Shown piece after piece: positions 5,764 to 56,200 of a stretch of DNA of 64,000 bases. Origin of the DNA: Apostichopus japonicus (lineage: Eukaryota; Echinodermata; Holothuroidea; Aspidochirotida; Stichopodidae); the NCBI RefSeq assembly GCF_037975245.1, contig NC_092576.1, forward strand, positions 6,304,001 to 6,368,000, written 5' to 3'. Position 1 is the stretch's first letter, and every line of letters begins with the position of its first letter. Below the pieces are notes generated by a model. The model was not told the origin of the DNA and ran no database searches. It was given only the letters and a program-made list of their open reading frames with translations. Made by a program: the position numbers and the translations under genes.

Positions 5764-8700
5764 CTAAGGGCTGTTGGTGTTAAAGATATCAATGTATACT
5801 AACAACTTCCCGTTGACTCGTTTCCACAGCTTCACAAGTCTGCAGGAAGGAAAGAAAAGGCAAATTCACTGGCGCTCAAAACGAACTCTTTGAACTAGAT
5901 CTCTCGTATATCATTTGATTACAGTAATAATAATATGAAGAATCATAATGATAATAATCATAATAATAATGGCTCGGTCCTTATGGTAGATCCTGGGTCA
6001 TTATAATAAAAGCTTGCAGACTGCTGGACTAAAGATATAATTATTAGTATGTTCTATTAAAGTATTAAATTATTTTAACATCATAAAAAGAAATATGATA
6101 TTATTCAGGGCTTTATTGGCTATCATGGGTCCCGCTACCCTTAATTTATAGTTGTAATATGGAGTTCTTCTGGTTGAACAATTGATACGACATTTATAGT
6201 GATTGTGATTAAGGACACCCCCTCTCCTTAGACCCCTCCTCCTTATCAGTCGGGGAAATCACAAGTCCCCTCCCCGTACCTCCGAAATCCTACGCACGCC
6301 ACTGACCACCGGGTACTCATGCAACCAACATCCAATCCTTCAGCTGTTTAAATGAATAAATATGTTACTCTATAGGAAAATGTAACCAAACCTTTAAATT
6401 AATTTACTTGCAAGTATAGCTATCATACAGGCAGTGTCTTAAACTTCGTCCTGTGTAACAATGTTTTGTTTGCGACCTATACATAACTAACCTAAACGAC
6501 GGATGCTAGGTGGGAGGTGGGATGAGGGAGGTCGGAAGTGGGAGGTGCTGTAGTATACCTTTGCATCACCATATAACCAGTGATCACATCCCTGTTCCAC
6601 TGGAAGCAATTTCTAGAGCAACAACAGAGATTTCAAGAAGAACTATGTGTCCGTAATGTATAACATTTATGAAGTAAAAAAGAGCGACAGACTGACTATA
6701 TAGGGGAATATAAACAAATACAGAAAAGAGCAAGAATGTTTTGCTCTTTAAATTAATAAAGCTAGCACTCACTTTCCATCTTGCGCTACTTTTCCATCGG
6801 CCAAAAAGAACTTGTAGAAAGATATGGAATAGGTCACGTCACCACCGGCTGCACCTATCTCTACAGTTTCACTCTGTAAGGTTGTAAAACCAGAGTCGTA
6901 CAGGCCCTGAAATATCTTGGCGATCACTATCATTATTGATAAAGAAAAAAGTTTAACCAAGTGAACGCGTAAGGTATCATATCCCAGTATTTTTTGGTGT
7001 TTTTTTTTTTTTTTTTTGGGGGGGGGGGGTATAACGGTATAAGGTTTTATAGTGACCCATCAATTTCATTGATGTAATAGTCCTTATTTGGTGGTGATTT
7101 ATGTACTAGGCTGACCACAGCATACGGTTGACATGATGGGGTGTCATGCTATAATTTTTTAGGATTACCGACCCATTTCGTTAATGAAATGGAATAATTA
7201 TATCTAAAGCTTTTATAATCAAAATGTCACGTTATGATCAATTTCAGTTTTTACGATTGTATGGCATATCACATTGGTCCAAATGTAAACATAGAGGTTG
7301 AAAGTAAGAAATAAGATGAATATATTGATAACTTGATTTTATTGGTAGATTGCATTAAAAGTGTCGATAAAACCATGCAGTATACCTACCTTCACGTCCT
7401 TCTACCATGGGAGATCCAAACGGAAGCAGTTTACAATCTTCTGTGAAGAGGTTACTCAGACCAATGAAGTCTTTGTCTGCGTACAGCTTCACAAATCTGC
7501 TAGAGGTAGCCAATATTTCTTCTTTCATACCTTTAGGAGAAACAGAATCATCGAGAGACAGGTTCAAGATATAATTATTTATATGTATATGTATATATAT
7601 CAGGCGCGGCGGAACGGAAAAATTATTGGGGGGGCTAATGTGTGGACACTATCTAAGCGGAGCGCCACCATCGGTTGGCGCGGATCGTACAAGAAAATTT
7701 TGGTTTTTTTCAAACCTCCAGATGGCCGGAAACGGCACTTACCGAGTGTTTTATGCTGCGAATACCTAGCCCTAGAATATGGGTCTCAAGCCTGCAATTT
7801 CTCAGATTGCACGAAAGTCTGTAAAAACATTGTAATTTGTATATTCGATGGTGTTTTAAGAGAGTCTATTACTCGTAGTGTACTCGCAAAGACGTTTTTG
7901 AATGTAGTAAGGGCAGTGGCGGAGCTAGGGGTATTGGTCACGGGGGGGGGGGCAAGAATATATTCTGTAGGGGCGCTTTCGACACTATCTAAGCGGAGCG
8001 CCACCACAGGTTGGCGCGGAGCGGTCAGAAAATTTTTTAGTAAAGACACTCCCTAGATTGCAGGAAATCACCCTTTCCGGGCCTTACTAATTTGCAGATA
8101 AACGGAGAATAAATAGGTGTCGTCGCCATTTTGTCGGAAAATTACACCAACAGAATATGACAAATGTCAATAGGTATATAAGAGCGCAATAAAATAGTCA
8201 ATAATCGCGAATAAGTAAAAAGTAGTGAAAAGCTGAAAAGGGCGCCAGCAGTCCATTTGAGTCCGTCAGGGGCGGATCCGCCCCTGACTGTATATATGGA
8301 CGCTCCGCCACTAAGTAAGGGGATGTTGGAAAACTGGCTGAAATGAGGCAAGTCACTGGCCTAAGACGAAGTTGTGTTACGCTTACCGATACTCACACTA
8401 ACTTCTTCCACTTTTCACGGGGCGTGAAGACGCGGTTGGGGTGACAATGTGGTCTATAGCCAGGGGACGGGCCGAGGGTCCCCCAGCAATTACTAAAATT
8501 ATTAAACCTATATAGTATACATGTGCATCGGACAGATCGACAAGTATGCATTGAAAAATGGGCAGATGCACGTTTGGAGCCTTTGTAAATATTGGGGGGC
8601 TTATCATGCATTTGCCCCCTCAACTTTTTCATTGGGGGGCTGAGCCCCCCAAGCCCCCCCCCCGGTTCCGCCGCCACTGATATATATATATTTACATTAT

Positions 8701-9081
8701 ATGATATATCATATTTTCCAACTCACTATAATTTCAATTATATACAAATATATATAAATATATATATATATCCTTTCATTCATTCGTTTATTTGTTTCTT
8801 CACAATATCAATACAGAGAAGTTAACTAAGTGACAAACCATATCAACAACAGGGAAAACTGTTAAAAGGAAGCACTCCAAACAATCCAGAGGGCTTGTTT
8901 AGTAGAGCGCTCACATTAAGTAAATAGAGAACAATACAAGAAAAAGTAACACTTATATCCACCCACACACCTACCCAATACGTATAACCCACCCACCCCA
9001 CCCCCGCCCCCACCACCCACAATACATAAATATACACATATGCATACATACACCATTGAATACAAATACACACACGCATAA

Positions 9082-9126
<45 letters not shown>

Positions 9127-9470
9127 TGGTTGGTTGGCGTCTATCTTGGCCCAGAGTGCTCTATGTTCGGTGGACAGAGCGAAATATATGTTGAGACTAG
9201 TTGAGACTAGTGGAACACTAGTTGTTGTAACTCAGAGTTTCACGCTTTGAGCGATCATCAGACAAATACCAGTTTCTTAAGCAAAAAGTAAACCTATTCT
9301 ATGCATGTTTTCATGTTACTTATGCCTTTCGCATAACGGTAATCTTTGGACCGTAGGTCAGCCGAAAGTACCAACACGGTATATAGATTGATGTATATAC
9401 TTATCACTGAAAATGCAGGTTAACGCGAGATATTTTACTTACCTTATTTATTCGTGTACTCACCTGACAT
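5764..9470 (-). CDS. SnoaL/DUF4440-like protein, gene A (complete, four exons)
   Basis: Assembled from exon 1 (9464-9470, ATG TCA G), exon 2 (7390-7530, 141 bp), exon 3 (6773-6926, 154 bp) and exon 4 (5764-5839, ending TAG). Donors are GTGAGT, GTAGGT and GTGAGT; each acceptor ends in AG and all phases agree, giving 125 aa. The protein shows the SnoaL-like (NTF2 fold) layout: an N-terminal helix, the core FTEDCKLLPFGSPM at about 31-44 followed by EGRE, an AGGDVTYS strand, FFLADGK, and a C-terminal LWKRVNGK...YIDIFN strand pair. The family has a cone-shaped ligand pocket; most animal members have no known reaction, so none is claimed. No signal peptide or membrane segment is seen. Intron 1 carries a nested hAT-like element pair. 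Genes B and C are paralogs. Confidence 0.85.
6200..6304. mobile_element. Possible hAT-like element end in intron 3 of gene A
   Basis: The sequence ends CCTACGCACGCCACTG at 6304, the inverse of the CAGTGGCG-type ends seen on the other hAT-like elements in this window. It is preceded by C-rich sequence like the interiors of those elements. No matching left end or target duplication was found, so this is a fragment at best. Confidence 0.35.
6999..7030. repeat. Poly-T followed by poly-G tract
   Basis: A run of about 18 T followed by 11 G in intron 2 of gene A. Low-complexity sequence prone to slippage. Confidence 0.8.
7601..8679. mobile_element. hAT-like element in intron 1 of gene A
   Basis: Ends are CAGGCGCGGCGGAACGG and, inverted, CAGTGGCGGCGGAACCGG. 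ATATATAT sits on both sides (7593-7600 and 8680-8687), consistent with an 8-bp duplication, though the host sequence is a TA repeat and therefore weak evidence. The interior is C/G-rich near the right end and contains the phrase CTAAGCGGAGCGCCACCA, which recurs inside the nested element at 7914-8313. No transposase is visible. Confidence 0.72.
7914..8313. mobile_element. 400-bp hAT-like MITE nested in the previous element
   Basis: Bounded by CAGTGGCGGAGC on the left and GCTCCGCCACTA on the right, flanked by a perfect 8-bp duplication AGTAAGGG (7906-7913 and 8314-8321). Close to the right end is a short palindrome GGGGCGGATCCGCCCC. It shares internal words with the host element, so a family member jumped into a relative. 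Confidence 0.88.
8680..9122. repeat. TA-rich and CA/CCCAC-rich simple sequence
   Basis: TA tracts at 8681-8690, 8738-8771 and 9076-9122, with a C/A-rich pyrimidine stretch at 8955-9060 (ACCCACCC-type). No gene is seen. It lies in intron 1 of SnoaL gene A. Confidence 0.7.
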
Positions 9471-9632
9471 GTTTGTTCGTATCTTCTCCTGAGATATAGA
9501 CCCAACAACGACTAGCTTGTGTTTGCTTATGGCTTCTATCAATTTTTGTGTATCTGTTTTTGCGGGTTTAAGAAGATCAATTTCACGCAGGAACGATTAC
9601 TTTATTGAAATATTTCTGGTCAAAATAAACCG

Positions 9633-9648
9633 GGGTTCAAATGAACCC
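9633..9648. promoter_or_regulatory. Inverted repeat GGGTTCA-AA-TGAACCC upstream of gene A
   Basis: A perfect 7-bp inverted repeat with a 2-bp spacer, about 163 bases upstream of the gene A start. Gene B has the related GGGTTCAAAATCACCC at 19745-19760, about 171 bases before its start. Symmetry and position in two paralogs suggest a protein-binding site. The half-sites look like nuclear-receptor half-sites (GGTTCA), which is inference. Confidence 0.4.
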
Positions 9649-9769
9649 TGGACAACAGACCTGGCTGAATACTCCATTAGTCTGTTATTATTATATCTAT
9701 CATTATTGTGCCTTATAATGCCCCGTGTTAAACAAGCCCTTCGCATATGGAGACCAAATCTTTCATATT

Positions 9770-9990
9770 TCATAAGTGATCACGCGTACTGTAATGAATG
9801 AATGGATGGATGATAACAGACTGACAATCAATCAAATATGGCTGGACCATTCTCAAAGAAGTCACATCTCGTAATTGGATTTCCGTCCATATATTGGTGG
9901 TCATTTCCTCTGTCAAGTTTCGAACGCGCAGATCTCTGACGCCGACATGCTCTTTTGTAGTTAGCTTATGTATTCCTGTTTATCAGACTT
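9770..9990 (-). promoter_or_regulatory. Conserved upstream block of SnoaL gene A
   Basis: This block resembles 19878-20065 upstream of gene B in order and spacing: GATCACGCGTACT (9778-9790 and 19886-19898), then a GTCACATCTC word, then CTGTCAA...TCGAA...GACGCCGACA-type sequence. GATCACGCGTACT lies 308 and 312 bases upstream of the two start codons. Conservation shows the duplication took in the promoter region; no TATA box was identified. Confidence 0.55.
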
Positions 9991-13407
<3,417 letters not shown>

Positions 13408-13653
13408 TCAAAAATGGTCAAATCCTAAACTGAAATAGGGCCCTCGATATGGAAATAGCAACTTCACACTGTAGCCAGACTCTACCATGCCATGGTCAGT
13501 TGGAACCCCAATATCTACACTATGTCCCGAGCCGCCTCCCCCAAGAGCAGCAGATGCATAAAAACCCCAACCACATTTTTTGTAACAATAAATTAGGTCT
13601 TCGAAAGCCGAATATCCTTCAAAGCACTTTGTTGATCTCAAATGAATGAACAT
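13408..13653 (-). other. 81-codon open frame after gene B exon 3, unrecognised
   Basis: An open frame ending at TGA 13408-13410, with no family I recognise and a glycine-rich middle (ALGGGGSG). A potential acceptor (GGCTACAG, exon from 13468) would join its last 19 codons in the correct phase to gene B exon 3. That peptide starts VKL like gene A exon 4 but lacks the WKR...DIFN motif, so it is a weak candidate for a replaced or decayed last exon. Confidence 0.18.
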
Positions 13654-13870
13654 TCATTGCACATTTTTCAGAGCCATCTGCTTGTCGAGTTTATTCTTTG
13701 CCTTTTTTTGTGTGCAATTTATGAAACTGCAATAGAATGACTTACAGTTAAGCCCAGAAGTTGTCTCTTTTTTCTTTTCTTTTTTTTTACATCCTTACAG
13801 CTCTATGACAGATTTTCTTTTTCCTCTTTGACAAAGTTAACTCGTTAAATTAAGATTATTAAATACTCAC

Positions 13871-16800
13871 TTCCCTTCTTGTGCTACCTTTCCATCCGCA
13901 AGAAAGAATTTGAAGTTTGCAACTGAGTAGACTACGTCACCACCTGCGGTACCAGTCTCTGTGGTTGTAGTGAGTAGATCTGTAAAACCAGATGCATGTA
14001 GGCTCTGAAACACCTTACCGATCGCTGAAATTAAAGTTTAAAATCAAAAATATGATCTTTTTAGTTTTTCTTGAACCAGTTAAGCTATTTCCCGCCTTAC
14101 AGGTATGCTCCTGGTTCTGTTGGTCTTGAACCAGTTTAGCTATTCCCGCCTTACGCTTATACTCTTGGTTTCTGTTAATAATCTTGCATAGTTTACCTAT
14201 TTCCCAACTTACGGTTCTACTCATGGCTTACTGTTGGTCTTGAAGCATACAAGCAATGTCAGATCATATGTTCATTTAACACATACTTGGATGGTATATA
14301 TTGGCGCCATGTACAATGAGGTTGAAGGTAAGAAATAATGTTAACCGTAATTGATCAATTGGTTTTATTGATAGATTGATTAGACGGATCGATAAAACCA
14401 TGTAGTATAGGCCATATAGGCAGTATAGGCCGATGTAGTATAGGCCATAAACCATGTAGTATAGGCTTACCTTCACGTCCTTGTAGCATAGGAGCGCCAA
14501 ATGGAAGTAGTTTACAGTCTTCTGTGTAGAGGTTACTCAGAGCTACGAAGTCCCCTTCAGTGTAGAGTTTCCTAAAGTTGCAATAAGCAGCAATTATTTC
14601 ATTTTGAAGGGCTTTAGAACAAAAGAGAAGAGGAGTATATTTAATCGGCATTACTTTGAGGGAGGCGAAATCCAACCCAGGAACTCATCATACCCAAAAC
14701 TTCATAAAATAAAGGAGCATATTTTGTTTGAGTCGTTAGTATTTAGTAAACAATCGCTTTACATTGTCATTTAGGCCTTCGTACATTGCAGAGCCGAAGC
14801 TCATCATCAGTATAATTATAATAGAATATTCCAGAAATTTACCATATAGCATAAGATAACCGGAATAGCCATGGAATCATTAGTTAGAACTCAATTATAT
14901 TGAATTATATCTTGTCAAGATTCATATTTTGCCAATAACTCCCCCGTTCTTATTAAGGGCTCTATAGAAGGCAACACCTTAGTGGCGACACAACTCGCAC
15001 AAACTCTCTTATATTTTTCACTGTTTTTGGAACTTTTGTACATTAATGCTACCCCTTGTACATATGATTGGAAATTCAGCTAAACGTGTAACTGGTGATG
15101 GATTTAAGCTGTTACGAGGCAATTGGATTCCGGCTCCTGGGAAAGGGAAGAAGGGTGCAGCATGGAGCTATAAATAGAGCTCCATGGGTGGAGGGGTGGC
15201 GTTTGCATATATACGTTAATGATAAGTGGTGTCATCCAACCATGCCTTTATTAAATATTATTCATGATCAGTGAATATCGAGATGTTCACAGTCAGTATG
15301 AGGCCATACACTGAAAAAATAAACTAGTCAATATTGCCACGGACTAACGTTAAATTAGTCTGTAACGTTAGTTAATGCACACGGACTAGCAAAAATCTTC
15401 GTTTCATCGCTGCTTCTTAGTCAGTTTACACTGACTAAGGAAAATATAATCGCAGCTTGGTCGGTGGCGACGGACTAAGGTATTTTAACCCATGGACTAA
15501 GAACGATACGGACACCCGATTTACGCCATAATCGTAGCTTAGTCGGTGTCGACGGACTAATGTATTTTAACCCAATTCGATTCACTTCAATTTGGAAACC
15601 GAGAGGCAACGGCAGCTTGCTGGACTTAGTTTCATACGATCACTCTAAGCAACTTTCAACCGTAAATCACCCAAGAAGGTCTTTAGAAGAATGGAGGTAT
15701 TAACTGCCATCATCGGCCTACCTGTTATTCCTTTAACTTGAAGGTAAAATTAAAGTTAATTGTTAGGCCACTGGCACTAGTATTGTATTATGGTTAGTGT
15801 AACGCTACCGTTGCCACGCTGGCGTTTCGCAATACACAAGTGCAATGACAGTGAGTAGCCTATAGGCTTCTACTGGGTACTGCAGTGCATTCTCAACACT
15901 AAAGTGTGCATTCTAAACACCAATTAACAATGTGTTATGTGTGTATTGGGCTAGATTGAACAGTGGCACATAATCTTCTAATTTATTCCCAAACAAATGC
16001 TGGAACTATAAGTCTCAATAGTTTATTTGAAGTCTACACTCATTTGGTAAAGATTTCCTGTAATTTCCCATGTGAATCTAAATGGGTAGGCTTTGTGATA
16101 TTGAATAAGCAAGGCTAGACCTTCAAACGTACAGTCACAGTAGGCTGAACAAATTATGTTGGCTAGTCAACGGTATTATATGTTGCGAGCAGTCAGGATG
16201 CACGCTTCAGTTCTATTTAACCTTTTCATTTATCATTTTTTAGTATTTTATTTCCGGTCACGCCATGAAACAATTGCGACATTCCTTCACGGTCGACTTG
16301 TTTACTGTAAGAAGTATTAACCGTTTTTTTCTCAGGAAAGCTTGATAGTCTGAAGTTATTATAAACATGTGCTTTTAGTATACTGCCAAAGAGTAAGTTG
16401 TTGTATTTGTATTGATATTTTATGTAGAAGTAACGGAAAATTTAGTATGTTTAGTTTGGTCTAAGTGCACGTTTTTTTCTGTCCAATGTAGTGCAGGGTT
16501 CACTTGCGCGAATTCAAATTATTCTGTTTATGTATATGTATATGCATCGATTCGTAGATTATGATGTTTTTTTTGACATTTATTTGTAATTCAAGCATAT
16601 CTGTTTAGTAGCAAAGTTTATAGGTTAAGATTAATTAGTTTTTTCTTTTTGATCCTAGATTGAATGAAACTCATTGACGTAAATAATAGATCAGATGATA
16701 CAGTTTAACGCAGTTGCTAAAACTCTGGGTATTCTCTAGTCTTCGCCGGTCCATTATATACTTTAGTACTACTAGTAAGACTAAATCAAACGACCTAAAG

Positions 16801-21291: not shown

Positions 21292-23960
21292 TATATAGTT
21301 CCGATGTTTAAGTAAATGTATATATGAAGAAGTTTTATTGCAGATTTTGATCTATTTATAGCTGTCGCCATGGCGATAGACGTTTCATTAGAAAAATGTA
21401 ATCGAAGTGAAGAAGTAATCAATTACTATTGGCTTTACAGTTTGCAAAGAAAGCTAAATAAATAAAGTTGTTGTGTACACCCTCATTTGCGCAATTTAAA
21501 GGTATAGTCTACACTTGTTTTGATTTGTTTGTTCCTATATCTATTTCTAGTTTGGGTTTTCGTTTTCAATTTCTTATTTTGGAGGTGGTTTCCTTCACCC
21601 AACTAATGAAGACTCTGTACGGGTCTTTATATGTTATTACATTAGAGGACGTTATAATTGATTTGGGCCAGTCGATTTTTTTCATATAACTTTCTTCTGT
21701 CCATTCTGATTACAGAGGTTACCGGAGATCGATTTTAACATGATCACCAATTTATTACGGTACGTTGCCTTCATTGCGTAAGAACTTGACGTTACGTTAG
21801 GTAATGTTCAATGACGTTTTCCGATGAACAATACAGTACAGCAATATTGTAATTTTAGAATAAGAGAAATGAAATTTATCTTTTCAAATATCGTACCCTT
21901 ATCATACATAATGTGTAGACCTATAAGTAATACGATTGATGCAGACCTTTCATATGAGCCACTAAATTAATTATAAAACTAAAATAATTCAAAACAAGAT
22001 TGCTGCATTTGTAACTTTAACATTTTCGGCACGTAAATAATAAAGCCTAATCTATTTTGTTAGATTCTTGCATTTTAATATCTCGAGAAAGTCGTTGACT
22101 ATTGGGTTAAAGGATCACTCTTTTTCAAATGAAACAAGCCCTGGTAGGTTCGATGATTTATTTCACAGTAATTGGTCACAGCTTCCTATTGTCTTTTTCA
22201 GACAGGCTCTATAGAGGGTCCGAAATGTATGATTTCTAGCAATGCTGAGGTTAGAGTTGAAGTTGTCTCTCTATGACATAACAATAATATATATTTGTCT
22301 TTCTATGATAAATGTAGCTGTTACCTAATTAGAACAAACGTTCCGTCCTTCTATCCAATAGACCACATATGCTTGCCCCATCCACCGCTTTTGGCAGGCA
22401 CAAATACAAACTGGGAACTCGGTATATCTTGTTGAGTATTATTCACGAAGAACCCTAAAGGACCTATGGGGCCATTTGACCTTGAGACAATTAGCCTTGG
22501 AACTCCAGTCGCTTTGGTCCTCGCGCCATCTTCATATCGGGTAATCCGGCACTGCTAATAAGCCTGTAATACTTTCACGGCACACACACACACACGCATA
22601 GAGGAATGACCACCATTAGCACAAATATTATTATTATGAATCCTGGCAGTCATCAGGACTGTTGAGATCATCAATAAATTATTACAACTGATAATTACAA
22701 ACCTTTAGGACAAAGAAACAGTCAAATTAATATGTTATTTCTTTTATGGTACAGACTAGTAAACTGCAGTCTATTAGAATATTTGCATGAATGACAACGA
22801 AAATGCAAATTTGATATGAAGAAGGCTATTCCAGATTTGTTCAAATGATAAATCTCAACAGTTCTTTTTTAAATGGAAGAATCCACATATAAAAACATAA
22901 GCCAATATGGTGCAAGGTATGAATTATGAGACTATACACGATTCACATAAATACGTAAATGACTAAAGCGTCACTTTGTGTAAGATAGTCCATACGGTGC
23001 ACCCGTTTATGCTTATGACGTCATTGTGACGAAATCCGAAATTTCTTCGTCTTCCAATTTTTTTTGTGTTTCGTGCATCATGCCGGTGCATGTATGCATA
23101 TTCATCCTTATAATTCAGTTGCAGTTTGTCGTCTGCATCGCAAACATAACCTAGTAGCCACCAAAATGTCTTCGGAAATCCTTTTCCATGAAAGGAGGAA
23201 ACAAAAAATGTACATACGGAAATTAATCCATTCTAGTTCAACCGCATCCGTATAAGTTTAAAACTAAAACATCTTGGGGTTTTTTTTTTTTTTTGGTGGG
23301 GGGTTGTCCTCTTTTTCTTGGCGGCGAAACTTGGGTATTCGTTCAGTCAGTTGCATGATGCTTTCATCCGAACTGTTGTAAAAGTCTTTACTCTTTGTGT
23401 TTCTGTTTTTCAGTGATCGGGTTAATCGCATCAAGGTTAGATCAGGCAGGGTAAGTATACCTTGATCCAGATAATCACGAATGTCGTTACCAGCTTGTGC
23501 GTTCATCAGCTATTCATCAAAGTATGCAGGAATTTAACTCCTATATTGTTATTTAAATTAACAGCCATACTCCTATACGGAAAGTATAAAAGACTGATTT
23601 TAGCCGATCTATCGAGGCACCGTATTATAGGCCTTCACATGCAGGCCTGTGTGTGTACACTGTGCGTGGGCTTTCAGTATATAGCCTTTATAAGCAGACG
23701 TTAACTTCACCACTATACCTTCAATGGGACTGGGGTTGAGAGTGGAACAAGTTGTTTGTTACACAGGCTCTATTTTGAGTCACCTTTCTTAAACAGTAAC
23801 TTCATTTGCACACTTCGGAATGGATTATCTTCTCCACGGTTCCAACAATATTTATGGACAAACGTTCGTTATCACGGTTTCCAGTAGAACAATATTATAT
23901 ATCTTATCATTGACAGAAAATATTACCGGAAAAAACTCGCGTTTATTCCACTGGAACTAA
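21289..23960. other. Intergenic, no confident gene
   Basis: AT-rich unique sequence with a 12-bp palindrome TCGCCATGGCGA near 21366, a short (CA)n at about 22581-22596 and a T/G tract at 23279-23302. At 23414-23451 a good acceptor (TTCTGTTTTTCAG) and a consensus donor (GGTAAGTAT) bracket about 37 bases on the plus strand, which could be a micro-exon or chance. No protein family is recognised. Confidence 0.45.
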
Positions 23961-24180: not shown

Positions 24181-24289
24181 CTATCTGCCCATTTTGTGAG
24201 TATATTTTTCTTACAAGTTTGATATGGCCTAGTCTGTTTCGTATATGTATTCTACAAATGATAAATCTAGTATAAGTAAGTGATTTTAA

Positions 24290-24439
24290 TTTTTAAGCCA
24301 CAGATATTTATAATAAGTGCACTCTAAAAGTATTCTAACCACATATATTCCTAGGTAAAACTATTACGTAAGTGATATAACACACACATTCATCAATAGA
24401 CTAGCTATATCACTTGTCTCAGCCACAGATATTCAAATA
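24290..24439 (+). repeat. Decayed monomers of the 43-bp satellite, left of an insertion
   Basis: Contains TTAAGCCACAGATATTTATA, TATTCTAACCACATATATTC and CAGCCACAGATATTCAAATA, all recognisable but diverged versions of the main satellite monomer found from 26.8 kb on. Confidence 0.7.
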
Positions 24440-24974
24440 CAGTGGCGTAGCTAGATGTTTTGGCGCCCGGGTGCAAGAGTAGAAAATTGCGCCCTCCCCC
24501 TCACACTACTGAAAGAAAACTAAATTGCGCGCGAAGCGCACGGAAATTGTTGGTTATAGTTTTTCGGGCAAGTCGTTACAGCCCCCCCCCCCCCCCAAAT
24601 CAAATTGTGCTCCTACGTCTATGATATTTCCACCTTTAGAAATCTACTGCCTTGGAACTGTGTAATAAAATACCCGAATTTTCTTGACATGTAGTCATTA
24701 CAGAATACAGAACAGCATAAAGAAGAAATGAGAAAACAGTCGAAATGGACTGAAAAGAAATCACAATCTATAAATTTGCTAATAAAAACAACTACATTCA
24801 GTTCAGATTCTTATTAGTAACTGGAAAATATTCATGTCTGACGACGTATATCAATTTCGTCATGTTTTTCTGAAAAGTGCTTACACTTTTTACTCTCATA
24901 ATCCCATTTCAGCGCCCCTCTAAACCCGGCGCCTGGGGCACGTGCCCTCCCTTGACCCCCTAGCTACGCCTCTG
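24440..24974. mobile_element. hAT-like element inserted in a satellite monomer
   Basis: 535 bp with ends CAGTGGCGTAGCTAG and, inverted, CAGAGGCGTAGCTAGGGGG. The flanking octamers TTCAAATA (24432-24439) and TTCAAAGA (24975-24982) match at 7 of 8. The interior has poly-C and GCGCGCGAAGCGC-type sequence and no reading frame. Confidence 0.82.
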
Positions 24975-24982
24975 TTCAAAGA

Positions 24983-25090
24983 TAAGCTAAATTTACATGT
25001 TTCGTATGTATAGAAGCCACTGATATTCATAGACACATCTGTTATGTAAGCCACAGATATTCATACACAAATGTGTTTCGTATGTATTTG
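24983..25090 (+). repeat. Decayed 43-bp satellite monomers, right of the insertion
   Basis: AGCCACTGATATTCATAGAC and AAGCCACAGATATTCATACA are spaced about 42 bases apart, continuing the remnant interrupted by the hAT-like element. Confidence 0.7.
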
Positions 25091-26451: not shown

Positions 26452-26685
26452 TTGCGAACGGAAGATCACGAAAGGGGTAATACAACAAGTGTATTTATAT
26501 GTACAAACGCACTACCGAACGGCATTTCAATACCTGCCGATATCGATTCCATTCTCGATGCGGTATTCACGGTATCGCCAAAGAGAGGCCATACGAAGTC
26601 ATTCTGGAACCGGTTACATCAGCTACAACCGATCCTGAAAATAAATCCGTGTCAAGGTCAACTTGATATGTGCACTTTACGGTGA
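26452..26685 (+). CDS. Possible terminal exon of an unrecognised gene
   Basis: An open frame that reads like protein after about 26470 (IPADIDSILDAVFTVSPKRG, then SFWNRLHQL) and ends at TGA. There is no convincing acceptor or start codon, and no family is recognised. It could belong with the candidate exon at 25470 or be a relic. The overlapping open frame from 26381 is less protein-like. Confidence 0.22.
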   Translation: MRTEDHERGNTTSVFICTNALPNGISIPADIDSILDAVFTVSPKRGHTKSFWNRLHQLQPILKINPCQGQLDMCTLR

Positions 26686-50275: not shown

Positions 50276-53200
50276 TTAAGAATGGGAGTCGGAATTAAAT
50301 ATATCCATGTACATGTACATCTGACCGTTGATCCGTTTCCACAGGGCAATAAATCTGTAGGGAAATATGAGATAAATTAACAGGGACAATTATAATGGTG
50401 AATCTTACGAGGACTTGCTGTCCTAACTAGATAAAAAATAAAGCCCTCATGCAGTGTCATGTGACGAGTTGACCATACCGTTCCATTGGTCGTGAGACTT
50501 TTCACCAATCGAAATGCAACCAACATATTATGTCAATGACAAGCCTAAAGTATCTTACTGCCTGCCTCAAACTCAGCCACAATACTACTTCATGTACTGT
50601 CAGGCTGAAGGTAAGCTTCAATACATCAAGTATTATTATTCTCATACTGAACCAAAATACCTCAAATACTGCCCCCAACTTGCTAAACCACAATATGGAA
50701 CGCACAGTCACCATCTAGCTAAACCGCAATACCCCAGATACTGCCACCAACAAGCTTAACCACAATATGGAACGCACAGCCACCATCTAGCTAAACCTCA
50801 AAACCTCAAATACTGCCACCAACAAGTTTAACCACAATACGGAACGCACAACCACCATCTAGCTAAAACCTCAATACCTCAAATACTGCCATCAACTAGC
50901 TAAACCACAACATGGAACGCACAGCCACCATCTAGCTAAACCTGAATACCTTTAATACTGCCTACCTCCAAATAGACTTCCACACTCTTCTTAATATTAT
51001 CATTAAGCGACTACCCACTCCTTGCGTTCTGTCACTCTCAAACTAAACCACGTACCTCCAGTACAGTCACGCAATAACCGTAGCTCAAACCTCAAATACT
51101 GCAACCCTTTAAAATAGACCCCCGGTCGTACCCCTGGTACTATCCTCATCAAGTGAAGCCCATATTTCTCAAATACTTCCACCCTGTACTCTACTTAATG
51201 TACTCTACTTAATGTACTCTAATGTACTCTATTTAATGCAATATAACTCTTCGGATTTACAGCTACACTACACAGACTGTAAGTTTCGTTACAAACACTA
51301 ATCTAGAATGCGGTGCCTGCAAACCTTATGTAGACATAACACTCCACTGTACTCTGTACTATATGATGCTGCCCCTGAGTAGAAAAACATGAATACATCA
51401 TACAATGTCACCATCAAGATTAACATTTGTACCTATTAAGCTGACGAACGCAAAGTAAAAATTTTCAAAACAAACATAATATATGTTTTGGACACCAATT
51501 AGGAGCTTTCTTCGTGAATTAATAATAAACAGAGAGGAATAGATAGTTCCCTATAACGTAGTGATAAAGCAACGTAACTAATTGTCTGGCAGGCTTACTT
51601 TCTCTGAACTATTACATCAACATTGTCAAATAAAGGCCATTAAGCAAGAAAGGGATACTTAAGTCAACAGAACTAGTTATAAAGTGACTTTCTGCCGTCT
51701 ATTTTTGACAGCACCCAAGGTGATGTCATGAGTATCTCAGAACTAGCTATGAAATGATTTACGTCCCTTTAGTTTCGAAAGCACCCGGGGCATATCAGAA
51801 AGATGTACATCAGTCAACAGAGCTAGTTATGCAGAGGAGTTATCACGTCAACAGAAGTGGTTGTAAAAATGACTTACTCAACCTTATCTCTGATATTATC
51901 CGAAGCCATTGCAGGGAAGGTATACCTAAGTCAACAGAACTATTTATAAAGTGACTTATATACTCTTATTTTCGACAGCACTCGAGACAATAGCAAGAAC
52001 TCGATCCCTAGATCAATAGAACTAGCTATGAAGTGATTTACGTCCCTTTAGTTTCGAAAGCAACCGGGGCATATCAGAAAGATGTACATCAGTCAACAGA
52101 GCTTGTAATACAGGGAGATACCTACGTCAACAGAAGTGGTTGTAAAAATGACTTACTCAACCTTATCTCTGACATTATCCGAGGCCATTGCATGGAAGGT
52201 ATACCTAAGTCAACAGAACTATTTATAAAGTGACTTATATACTCTTATATTCGACAGCACTCGAGACAATAGCAAGAACGCGACCCCTATATTTCGACAG
52301 CACCCAATGTGACGGTAGGAGTATCTCAGTCAACAGAACTAGCTATGAAGTGATTTGCTTCCCTATATTTCGACAGCACCCAATGTGACGGTAGGAGTAT
52401 CTCAGTCAACAGAACTAGCTATGAAGTGATTTGCTTCCCTATATTTCGACAGCACCCAATGTGACGGTAGGAGTATCTCAGTCAACAGAACTAGCTATGA
52501 AGTGATTTGCTTCCCTATATTTCGACAGCACCCAATGTGACGGTAGGAGTATCTCAGTCAACAGAACTAGCTATGAAGTGATTTACTTCCCCTATTTTCG
52601 ACAGCACCCAATGTGACGGTAGGAGTATCTCAGTCAACAGAACTAGCTATGAAGTGATTTGCTTCCCTATATTTCGACAGCACCCAATGTGACGGTAGGA
52701 GTATCTCAGTCAACAGAACTAGCTATGAAGTGATTTGCTTCCCTATATTTCGACAGCACCCAATGTGACGGTAGGAGTATCTCAGTCAACAGAACTAGCT
52801 ATGAAGTGATTTGCTTCCCTATATTTCGACAGCACCCAATGTGACGGTAGGAGTATCTCAGTCAACAGAACTAGCTATGAAGTGATTTGCTTCCCTATAT
52901 TTCGACAGCACCCAATGTGACGGTAGGAGTATCTCAGTCAACAGAACTAGCTATGAAGTGATTTACTTCCCCTATTTTCGACAGCACCCAATGTGACGGT
53001 AGGAGTATCTCAGTCAACAGAACTAGCTATGAAGTGATTTGCTTCCCTATATTTCGACAGCACCCAATGTGACGGTAGGAGTATCTCAGTCAACAGAACT
53101 AGCTATGAAGTGATTTACTTCCCCTATTTTCGACAGCACCCAATGTGACGGTAGGAGTATCTCAGTCAACAGAACTAGCTATGAAGTGATTTGCTTCCCT

Positions 53201-56200
53201 ATATTTCGACAGCACCCAATGTGACGGTAGGAGTATCTCAGTCAACAGAACTAGCTATGAAGTGATTTGCTTCCCTATATTTCGACAGCACCCAATGTGA
53301 CGGTAGGAGTATCTCAGTCAACAGAACTAGCTATGAAGTGATTTGCTTCCCTATATTTCGACAGCACCCAATGTGACGGTAGGAGTATCTCAGTCAACAG
53401 AACTAGCTATGAAGTGATTTACTTCCCCTATTTTCGACAGCACCCAATGTGACGGTAGGAGTATCTCAGTCAACAGAACTAGCTATGAAGTGATTTGCTT
53501 CCCTATATTTCGACAGCACCCAATGTGACGGTAGGAGTATCTCAGTCAACAGAACTAGCTATGAAGTGATTTGCTTCCCTATATTTCGACAGCACCCAAT
53601 GTGACGGTAGGAGTATCTCAGTCAACAGAACTAGCTATGAAGTGATTTGCTTCCCTATATTTCGACAGCACCCAATGTGACGGTAGGAGTATCTCAGTCA
53701 ACAGAACTAGCTATGAAGTGATTTGCTTCCCTATATTTCGACAGCACCCAATGTGACGGTAGGAGTATCTCAGTCAACAGAACTAGCTATGAAGTGATTT
53801 GCTTCCCTATATTTCGACAGCACCCAATGTGACGGTAGGAGTATCTCAGTCAGCAGAACTAGCTATGAAGTGATTTACTTCCCCTATTTTTGACAGCACC
53901 CAATGTGACGGTAGGAGTATCTCAGTCAACAGAACTAGCTATGAAGTGATTTGCTTCCCTATATTTCGACAGCACCCAATGTGACGGTAGGAGTATCTCA
54001 GTCAACAGAACTAGCTATGAAGTGATTTGCTTCCCTATATTTCGACAGCACCCAATGTGACGGTAGGAGTATATCAGTCAACAGAACTAGCTATGAAGTG
54101 ATTTGCTTCCCTATATTTCGACAGCACCCAATGTGACGGTAGGAGTATCTCAGTCAACAGAACTAGCTATGAAGTGATTTGCTTCCCTATATTTCGACAG
54201 CACCCAGTGTGACGGTAGGAGTATCTCAGTCAACAGAACTAGCTATGAAGTGATTTGCTTCCCTATATTTCGACAGCACCCAATGTGACGGTAGGAGTAT
54301 CTCAGTCAACAGAACTAGCTATGAAGTGATTTGCTTCCCTATATTTCGACAGCACCCAATGTGACGGTAGGAGTATCTCAGTCAACAGAACTAGCTATGA
54401 AGTGATTTGCTTCCCCTATTTTCGACAGCACCCAATGTGACGGTAGGAGTATCTCAGTCAACAGAACTAGCTATGAAGTGATTTGCTTCCCTATATTTCG
54501 ACAGCACCCAATGTGACGGTAGGAGTATCTCAGTCAACAGAACTAGCTATGAAGTGATTTGCTTCCCTATATTTCGACAGCACCCAATGTGACGGTAGGA
54601 GTATCTCAGTCAACAGAACTAGCTATGAAGTGATTTGCTTCCCTATATTTCGACAGCACCCAATGTGACGGTAGGAGTATCTCAGTCAACAGAACTAGCT
54701 ATGAAGTGATTTGCTTCCCCTATTTTCGACAGCACCCAATGTGACGGTAGGAGTATCTCAGTCAACAGAACTAGCTATGAAGTGATTTGCTTCCCTATAT
54801 TTCGACAGCACCCAATGTGACGGTAGGAGTATCTCAGTCAACAGAACTAGCTATGAAGTGATTTGCTTCCCTATATTTCGACAGCACCCAATGTGACGGT
54901 AGGAGTATCTCAGTCAACAGAACTAGCTATGAAGTGATTTACTTCCCCTATTTTCGACAGCACCCAATGTGACGGTAGGAGTATCTCAGTCAACAGAACT
55001 AGCTATGAAGTGATTTGCTTCCCTATATTTCGACAGCACCCAATGTGACGGTAGGAGTATCTCAGTCAACAGAACTAGCTATGAAGTGATTTGCTTCCCT
55101 ATATTATCGACAGCCCCCGAGACCACATCAGAAAGGGATTCCATCAGTCAACAGAACTAGTTATGCATTAAAGAGTTACCTAAGTCAAATAACTATAGCT
55201 GTGAGGTGACTTACTTCCCCTTATCCCCGACAGTGCCATCGTCACGGAAGAGGGTGTAGACTCCTCTAGAGTAGACCAGATCACCACCAGCTGGGCCGAT
55301 CTCCTCTTCTACGATTTTGACTTTCTTCATACCTTTATCATAAACATGCTGGAAAGCCTTAGCTGCTCCTGAAAGGTATTAAACCGAAAAAGGAAAATAA
55401 ACTTGTTAGTATTACCTAAAGATTGAAAACAAATGCACAATATTACAAACATATTTTTTGAGACACACATACAAGCCTGACTCAAGGTTTGTTGCACAGC
55501 GAAGCCGAGGACCTAATAAAATTTAATAAACAGAAACATGGGCAAAGAAACATAATTGTCTAGCTGTGTTTTCGTAGCTTGTTCGTTATTGAGACTCTCT
55601 TAAGACGCTCTTTTCTTTTCTAAGTTTCTCAAAATTCAATGAAGATTATTTTAAAAAATTGAATAAGTGCTTAATTTTACTTGACGTAAGCATATAATTA
55701 TATGTAACGGTGCTTACGTAATCATAACAGTTTACAAACAAAGCATTTGCTGTTTCTAGGAACTGAAATTGTTTCTTGCATCACTTGAACCGTTCAACGA
55801 TTCCGTTTCTTGGTTTTCATATACTATAACGACGGAAAAGCCCTGCTCCCACAACCCCCTCCCTCAACCACCTACAAGAAAAATTCATGCCATCCTCACC
55901 TTCACGTCCTTGTCCCATGGGATGCCCAGCTGGGAGAGTCTTACAGTCTTCAGTGTAGAGTTGACTCATGGCACGGAGGTCTCCGTTTCCGAACAGTTCT
56001 TCAATTTTACGGTCAGTAGCCTCTATTCCGTCTCGGAGACCTTCACGTTACAGAAAAATAAAAACAAATGTGTAGTCTCCCAGATTATGGTGACGCTTCA
56101 GAAGTTCAGAGATAATTGGCGATATATGACGTATGTGACATCTATAAAAGATATAGCAATGATGATGATGATGATGATGACGAGGATGAAGATGACGATA

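Follow-up and report, generated by a model that had tools for sequence, protein, structure and literature searches.

A 76-bp intronic minisatellite very probably born from the exon-3 donor junction of its host gene in Apostichopus japonicus

The window analysed here is a 64,000-nucleotide stretch of the genome of the echinoderm Apostichopus japonicus (C16:6304001-6368000, from a genome examined over 671,581,487 bases in 35 contigs). The mitochondrial contig C35 (16,099 bp) likewise points to an echinoderm: with code 9, in which AAA stands for Asn, its first gene translates into an ordinary cytochrome oxidase 1, and its open frames, named by eye, run cox1, nad4L, cox2, atp6, cox3, nad3, nad4, nad5, nad6 (minus strand), cob, nad1, nad2, the arrangement of sea urchins and sea cucumbers. 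Its minus strand carries three paralogous SnoaL/DUF4440-like genes, A, B and C, and the third intron of gene C houses a tandem array of a 76-bp unit. We consider it very probable that this array belongs to the intronic minisatellites that span an exon-intron boundary ('mirages') and was born from the donor junction of gene C's own exon 3.

Gene C and the repeats of its third intron

The genes and the exons of gene C were placed as follows.

5767-7531, minus strand: gene A, matched exons (protein comparison)
13870-14612, minus strand: gene B, matched exons; exon 4, looked for in 9001-13869, was not found
50276-56041, minus strand: gene C, matched exons (protein comparison)
55900-56041, minus strand: gene C exon 2, coding, 5' end approximate (tblastn to paralogs; GT donor, spliced frame)
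55215-55368, minus strand: gene C exon 3 (AG acceptor, GT donor, open spliced frame, paralog match)
50355-55214, minus strand: gene C intron 3, host of the array (donor GTAAGT, acceptor TTCCCTACAG, frame carried on by exon 4)
50276-50354, minus strand: gene C exon 4 with stop codon (spliced translation)

Within 284 kb around and including the window, A, B and C were the only paralogs found. When spliced, exons 2-4 of gene C form a single open frame that matches PDB entry 3hx8 (E=3.6e-9), with the exon 3/4 junction ungapped in the alignment; the Pfam matches of gene C to SnoaL_2 (24.2 bits against a cut-off of 27) and DUF4440 (20.8 against 25.2) both lie below the curated cut-offs. In all three genes exon 3 ends in DGxVxxxGK, with the GT donor within the last codon. 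The authentic boundary of gene C has been kept beside the repeats: the native donor GT of exon 3 is at 55214/55213, the frame stays open through exons 2 and 3 until the stop codon of exon 4, and introns 2 and 3 have GT/AG ends.

The repeats around this boundary form several layers, listed here together with the native junction.

52285-55118, minus strand: 76-bp tandem array, 37.3 copies (Tandem Repeats Finder, TRF, 98% matches; unit listing)
51739-52289, minus strand: older higher-order repeat, 279 bp x 2.0, arranged M2-S1-J1-M3 and M4-S2-J2-M5 (TRF, 94% matches)
51847-51929, minus strand: J1, diverged junction copy keeping GTAAGT, preceded by a truncated monomer as at the native junction
52126-52208, minus strand: J2, second copy of J1
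51663-51738, minus strand: M1, outermost clear monomer (67.1 bits, in profile; z 5.0 against native)
51578-51662, minus strand: J0, possible still older copy, weak (by eye; exon-tail test not significant; z 2.1 against native)
55065-55146, minus strand: R, exon-side edge monomer, half array-like and half M2-like (unit comparison)
55147-55183, minus strand: SR, truncated monomer adjoining the native junction and corresponding to S1 and S2 (S1-SR 29/33, S2-SR 26/34)
55184-55259, minus strand: native source junction, made up of the final 45 bp of exon 3, the donor GT and 31 bp of the intron (core by profile 55196-55248)

The array is 2.8 kb long and contains 36 intact units at 52329-55064, in agreement with the roughly 37 copies that the initial annotation had counted within the gene's own intron. 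Only six distinct sequences occur among these 36 units: 26 are identical with GC at the donor position, two are single-base variants of this GC type, six carry GT (units 4, 9, 11, 15, 21 and 35) and two are mixed (units 28 and 32), combining GC with CCCC, and these last may be intermediates or recombinants. Counted by donor position, GC stands in 30 of the 36 units and GT in six, the same common and minority variants that had been described at the outset. The core of the array is homogenised, with a mean pairwise identity of 97.5% over the 36 units, edge units excluded.

Diverged relatives had been placed at 51720-52290 and beside exon 3, and both groups were recovered, the first starting at 51663 and perhaps at 51578. 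A profile built from 10 monomer sequences, with the native junction excluded, gave seven matches of 57.9-67.1 bits and one short match of 8.1 bits at 51663-52285, and one of 69.7 bits at 55065-55143; these scores are descriptive because eight of the nine relatives were themselves in the profile. The paired elements of the two 279-bp blocks (M2-M4, J1-J2 and M3-M5) are 95-97% identical. Barring these duplicated pairs and the comparison of R with the array (88-92%), the edge monomers are 67-86% identical to each other and to the array, and 51739-51833 is 82.7% identical to 55071-55167. The 279-bp blocks and the native side have a common order of elements, namely an M-type end, a truncated monomer and a junction copy, and align at 107/133 and 104/133 identical positions with scores of 100 and 91, compared with maxima of 36 and 35 for shuffled controls and 67 for the best array phase. 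These layers would fit an old seed followed by block duplication and then a recent burst, an order suggested by divergence.

Donor scores, computed with general splice-site frequencies, were 7.55 for the native donor, 3.04 for the GT units, -2.88 for the GC units, 4.76 for J1/J2, 7.15 for J0 and 6.24 for SR. The array units, GT ones included, are without the +5 G, and J1 and J2 retain GTAAGT. RNA structure was rejected as a role for the array, since four array stretches folded worse than their own shuffles (z +1.1 to +3.2; native stretch -0.45), and an Rfam search returned no matches at gathering scores. The same intron holds a second tandem array at 50650-50962, with a 72-bp unit in 4.2 copies, whose sole outside match is at 51087-51106.

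Homology to the exon-3 junction and the direction of copying

The native stretch at 55184-55259 is 76 bp long, equal to the array unit, and the monomer profile recognises it at 55196-55248 with 26.2 bits (E=3.5e-7). Five shuffled controls reached at most 9.8 bits, and in the window outside the repeat region, native junction apart, the best match had 5.5 bits. Local alignment of doubled units with 55184-55369 was judged against 1000 dinucleotide shuffles of either partner: the doubled GT unit scored 42, which was reached by 0 and 0 of the shuffles, and the doubled GC unit 32, reached by 1 and 0. The alignment through intron, donor and exon end that the initial annotation had proposed is thus clearly better than that of shuffled sequence. 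Identity to the native junction is 59/73 for the GT unit (z 12.2) and 57/73 for the GC unit (z 10.6), and as the GT units are the closer of the two to the native sequence, GC is probably the derived state. The intron part alone was matched by 1 and 4 of 1000 shuffles, GT and GC units alike, and J1 against the native stretch by 1 and 14 (against the exon alone, 72 and 97). When the 45-bp exon tail was aligned globally, four of the eight monomer tails (array GT, array GC, J1 and J2) reached significance at p<=0.0025 with both shuffles; when the edges of paralogs A and B served as controls, the lowest of the eight p values was 0.0225 with A (array GT) and 0.0805 with B (J1), and in local alignment neither edge was significant.

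Evidence on direction comes from a further paralog. A genome-wide protein search for the gene family returned at least 23 matches, on C16 (genes A-C) and on C13, and the closest to gene C among the matches listed was gene D (C13:26390273-26393182), whose exon 3 is 60% identical. D agrees with C at the exon end, in the GTAAGT donor and over the first few bases of the intron, and one alignment crosses the junction (score 103). Neither TRF nor the monomer profile found a 76-bp array in intron 3 of D (1345 bp), where the best profile match is weak (4.0 bits, E=0.094) and sits on D's own exon-3 junction. Since D lacks the array but shares its exon end and donor with C, it is most likely that the exon seeded the repeat; the exon edge would be older than the array, which would have arisen on gene C's side. 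The edge also appears ancestral when judged by the DGxVxxxGK end and donor place common to A, B and C and by the ungapped 3hx8 alignment.

Several results weigh against an origin from the exon edge. The exon part alone was not significant in local alignment (78 and 37 of 1000 shuffles for the GT unit, 967 and 839 for the GC unit), nor were the exon tails of J0, M1, M2 and M3, 4 of the 8, in global alignment. Past about the first 19 exon bases, 5 of 7 monomer tails were not significant, J1 and J2 giving p about 0.03 and two chosen tails jointly p=0.047, and the secure exon share appears short, at about 20 bp. The match of the repeat units to D's edge was not significant (153, 550 and 605 of 1000 shuffles), so the link from repeat to exon rests on gene C. 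Lastly, two unrelated donors in gene C intron 3, at 50965 (9.17) and 51055 (8.96), outscore the native one.

The homology spans some 31 bp of intron, the donor and about 20 bp of exon 3, and a deeper exon homology, perhaps to 45 bases, is suggestive. The unit crosses the exon-intron border of its host gene, as a boundary-spanning repeat does. The proposal that an exon edge with its donor had been amplified therefore stands as regards the junction origin, through the profile, paralog D and the genome search described below, but for exon sequence beyond about 20 bp it is not secure. As for the edges of the paralogs, whose alignment the annotation had suggested as a check, gene C aligned significantly, and A and B (local alignment) and D did not.

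Intron 3 of D also contains two short and almost exact copies of D's own exon-3 sequence, with exact stretches of 24 and 33 bp (L033 520-543 and 752-784; the region concerned is L033 317-543 and 752-784, C13:26391617-26392084), both of which stop short of the donor. The longest exon match in 60 shuffled D introns was 11, and in genes A, B (first 900 bp) and C exon 3 shares at most 8-9 consecutive bases with intron 3, which is chance level. Exon-to-intron copying may recur in this gene family. That introns of this echinoderm family, and so introns outside lancelets, have repeatedly grown in this way, the exon-donor edge of C having seeded more than one generation of repeats and C and D being stages of one process, is a tentative and rather doubtful extension, although paralog D strengthens it as it does the junction origin of the array. 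Separately, D carries a 71-bp tandem array of 3.9 copies (L033 1-285) that ends about 30 bp ahead of the exon-3 acceptor, and its unit does not match that acceptor edge significantly (273 of 1000 shuffles). More distant members of the family form a cluster at C13 7.68-8.59 Mb.

Proposed origin, donor decay and alternative explanations

If the array was born from the exon-3 junction, a segment of about 76 bp, running from the end of exon 3 through the donor and some 31 bp into intron 3, would have been duplicated in tandem, and behind the observed homology we infer slippage or unequal exchange as the mutational process. The copy attached to the main part of exon 3 would go on serving as the working donor, so that further copies would fall into the intron and could decay. 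Old copies would have been re-duplicated as larger 279-bp blocks, and later one unit would have been amplified and homogenised into some 37 near-identical copies, again in an order suggested by divergence. Splicing would be expected to skip the array, since the native donor is exon-proximal and outscores the array donors; because of the donors at 50965 and 51055, a rule that the strongest donor wins is insufficient here. Translation past the native donor reads GK* with an immediate stop, and use of a decoy donor would therefore truncate the protein. The array probably has no role beyond lengthening the intron.

A repeat-first history would reverse this order, a pre-existing intronic satellite supplying exon 3 with its end and donor by exonisation or gene conversion. 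Homology alone carries no direction, and single bases could have been converted, but paralog D, which is free of the array, shares the exon end and donor of gene C, the frame and the V...GK residues are conserved in A, B and 3hx8, and the GT units, which are nearer to the native sequence, are a minority, as expected if GC is derived. We consider such a history very unlikely.

It is similarly improbable that the array donors are functional, acting as length-variable decoys that bind U1 and tune the splicing of intron 3, with the change from GT to GC representing selected silencing. GT is kept in 6 of 36 units and in J1 and J2, and GC stands in 30 of 36; in the prevalence of GC the initial annotation had seen decoy donors being silenced. 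Over seven monomer types, however, the donor columns agree with the native junction in 11 of 14 cells (0.79), compared with 0.76 for the intron part, so they are no more diverged than that part and selection against decoy donors leaves no signal in column divergence across these 14 cells. One haplotype accounts for the GC count, and the array units are without the +5 G that J1 and J2 keep within GTAAGT. The silencing idea is not borne out; the change from GT to GC looks like one derived change that spread through the array.

That a mobile or dispersed satellite was inserted beside an exon edge similar by chance is barely credible, for although satellite-like arrays on mobile elements are reported in oyster in the available portion of the source (PMC7492417), the homology passes through the host gene's own donor and the genome matches listed lie at the gene C locus only. 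The DNA search with two units behind this last point gave at least 19 matches, all at C16:6355662-6359096, its counts are lower bounds, and it skipped very common words; among the matches listed, in 671.6 Mb, the array was found at gene C and at no other locus, which also speaks against abundance elsewhere, an outcome that the initial annotation had named as refuting. The abundance, multiple loci or megabase extent of a satellite DNA was not seen among these matches, nor were dispersed copies at unrelated loci, as for introners or mobile elements, found in the genome search. An exact 48-base stretch had no match in viral_contigs, which bears little on dispersal.

Twelve other array stretches in the window (up to the first 401 bases of each) were compared with it, masking the gene C repeat region and 60 bp beyond. 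Eight of the 12 matched nothing beyond the listed array regions, and outside matches were seen for the arrays at 23953 (7 rows), 26796 (13), 28859 (15) and 50650 (1). An exon origin for these arrays was rejected, no exon of gene A, B or C being among the matches listed (for 26796 and 28859, the best 10 of 13 and the best 10 of 15). Downstream of gene C, a 43-bp tandem array extends over about 21 kb (26796-48130); its unit holds GTAAGT on the plus strand, and it has diverged relatives at 24280-24449 and 25011-25065. Intron 2 of gene B carries a 58-bp repeat (3.1 copies, 14069-14244) about 43 bp ahead of the exon-3 acceptor, with no match elsewhere in the window. The start of the same intron (14400-14472) carries a CCTATACTACAT-like repeat of about 15 bp in about four copies, directly behind the exon-2 donor; this repeat is donor-adjacent but leaves the GT outside, and in gene A the CCTATACTACAT-like sequence occurs once at the corresponding place. 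Weak Pfam matches, below cut-off, were obtained to guanylate cyclase at 26469-26618 (E=0.0011) and to the death effector domain at 268-633 (E=0.0039).

Comparison with known boundary-spanning repeats

Mirages are reportedly a finding of Canestro et al. in 2002, who are said to have given the first description of them. The initial annotation had supposed that few satellites have so traceable a birth, and this needs to be revised in light of a class that already has a name. Going by the accessible parts of the sources, lancelet mirages are tandem repeats across exon-intron boundaries, found in globin genes (PMC3087553) and also in Adh, troponin C and PGBD5 (PMC3902484), the genes concerned being amphioxus Adh3, the globins BflGb6 and BflGb9, troponin C and PGBD5. 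In the same portions, their units are comparable in length to the present one, at 10-72 bp for Adh3 and 150-160 bp for the globins, splice signals occur in many of them, and the units are homogenised with the cluster edges left out. The gene C array differs in its echinoderm host, in having about 37 copies compared with 6 and 3 in two BflGb6 haplotypes, in its several age layers and in the decay of most of its donors. Undisturbed splicing and length instability are reported for mirages in these portions, whereas the gene C array is known from the sequence of one assembly.

Tandem repeats at human exon-intron boundaries have also been discussed (PMC2812944, in the part available), and tandem duplication as a source of new introns, as far as the accessible text of PMC2812944 and PMC4974935 goes, likewise acts at a splice junction; here an existing intron grew and no new intron is evident. 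The gene C array resembles satellite DNA in being tandem and homogenised with older copies at its edges, but it is 2.8 kb long and lies at a single locus among the matches listed. No echinoderm boundary-spanning repeat was among the literature matches listed, in a search whose coverage mostly excludes subscription papers.

The birth sites of tandem repeats are rarely traceable. This locus allows the seed to be set beside old intermediates, a young array and a paralog that lacks the array. The gene C array joins an already described class of boundary-spanning repeats. If mirages occur in echinoderms as well as in lancelets, boundary duplication may be more widespread among animals as a way for introns to grow and new splice sites to arise, and the genomes already available allow a survey of it.

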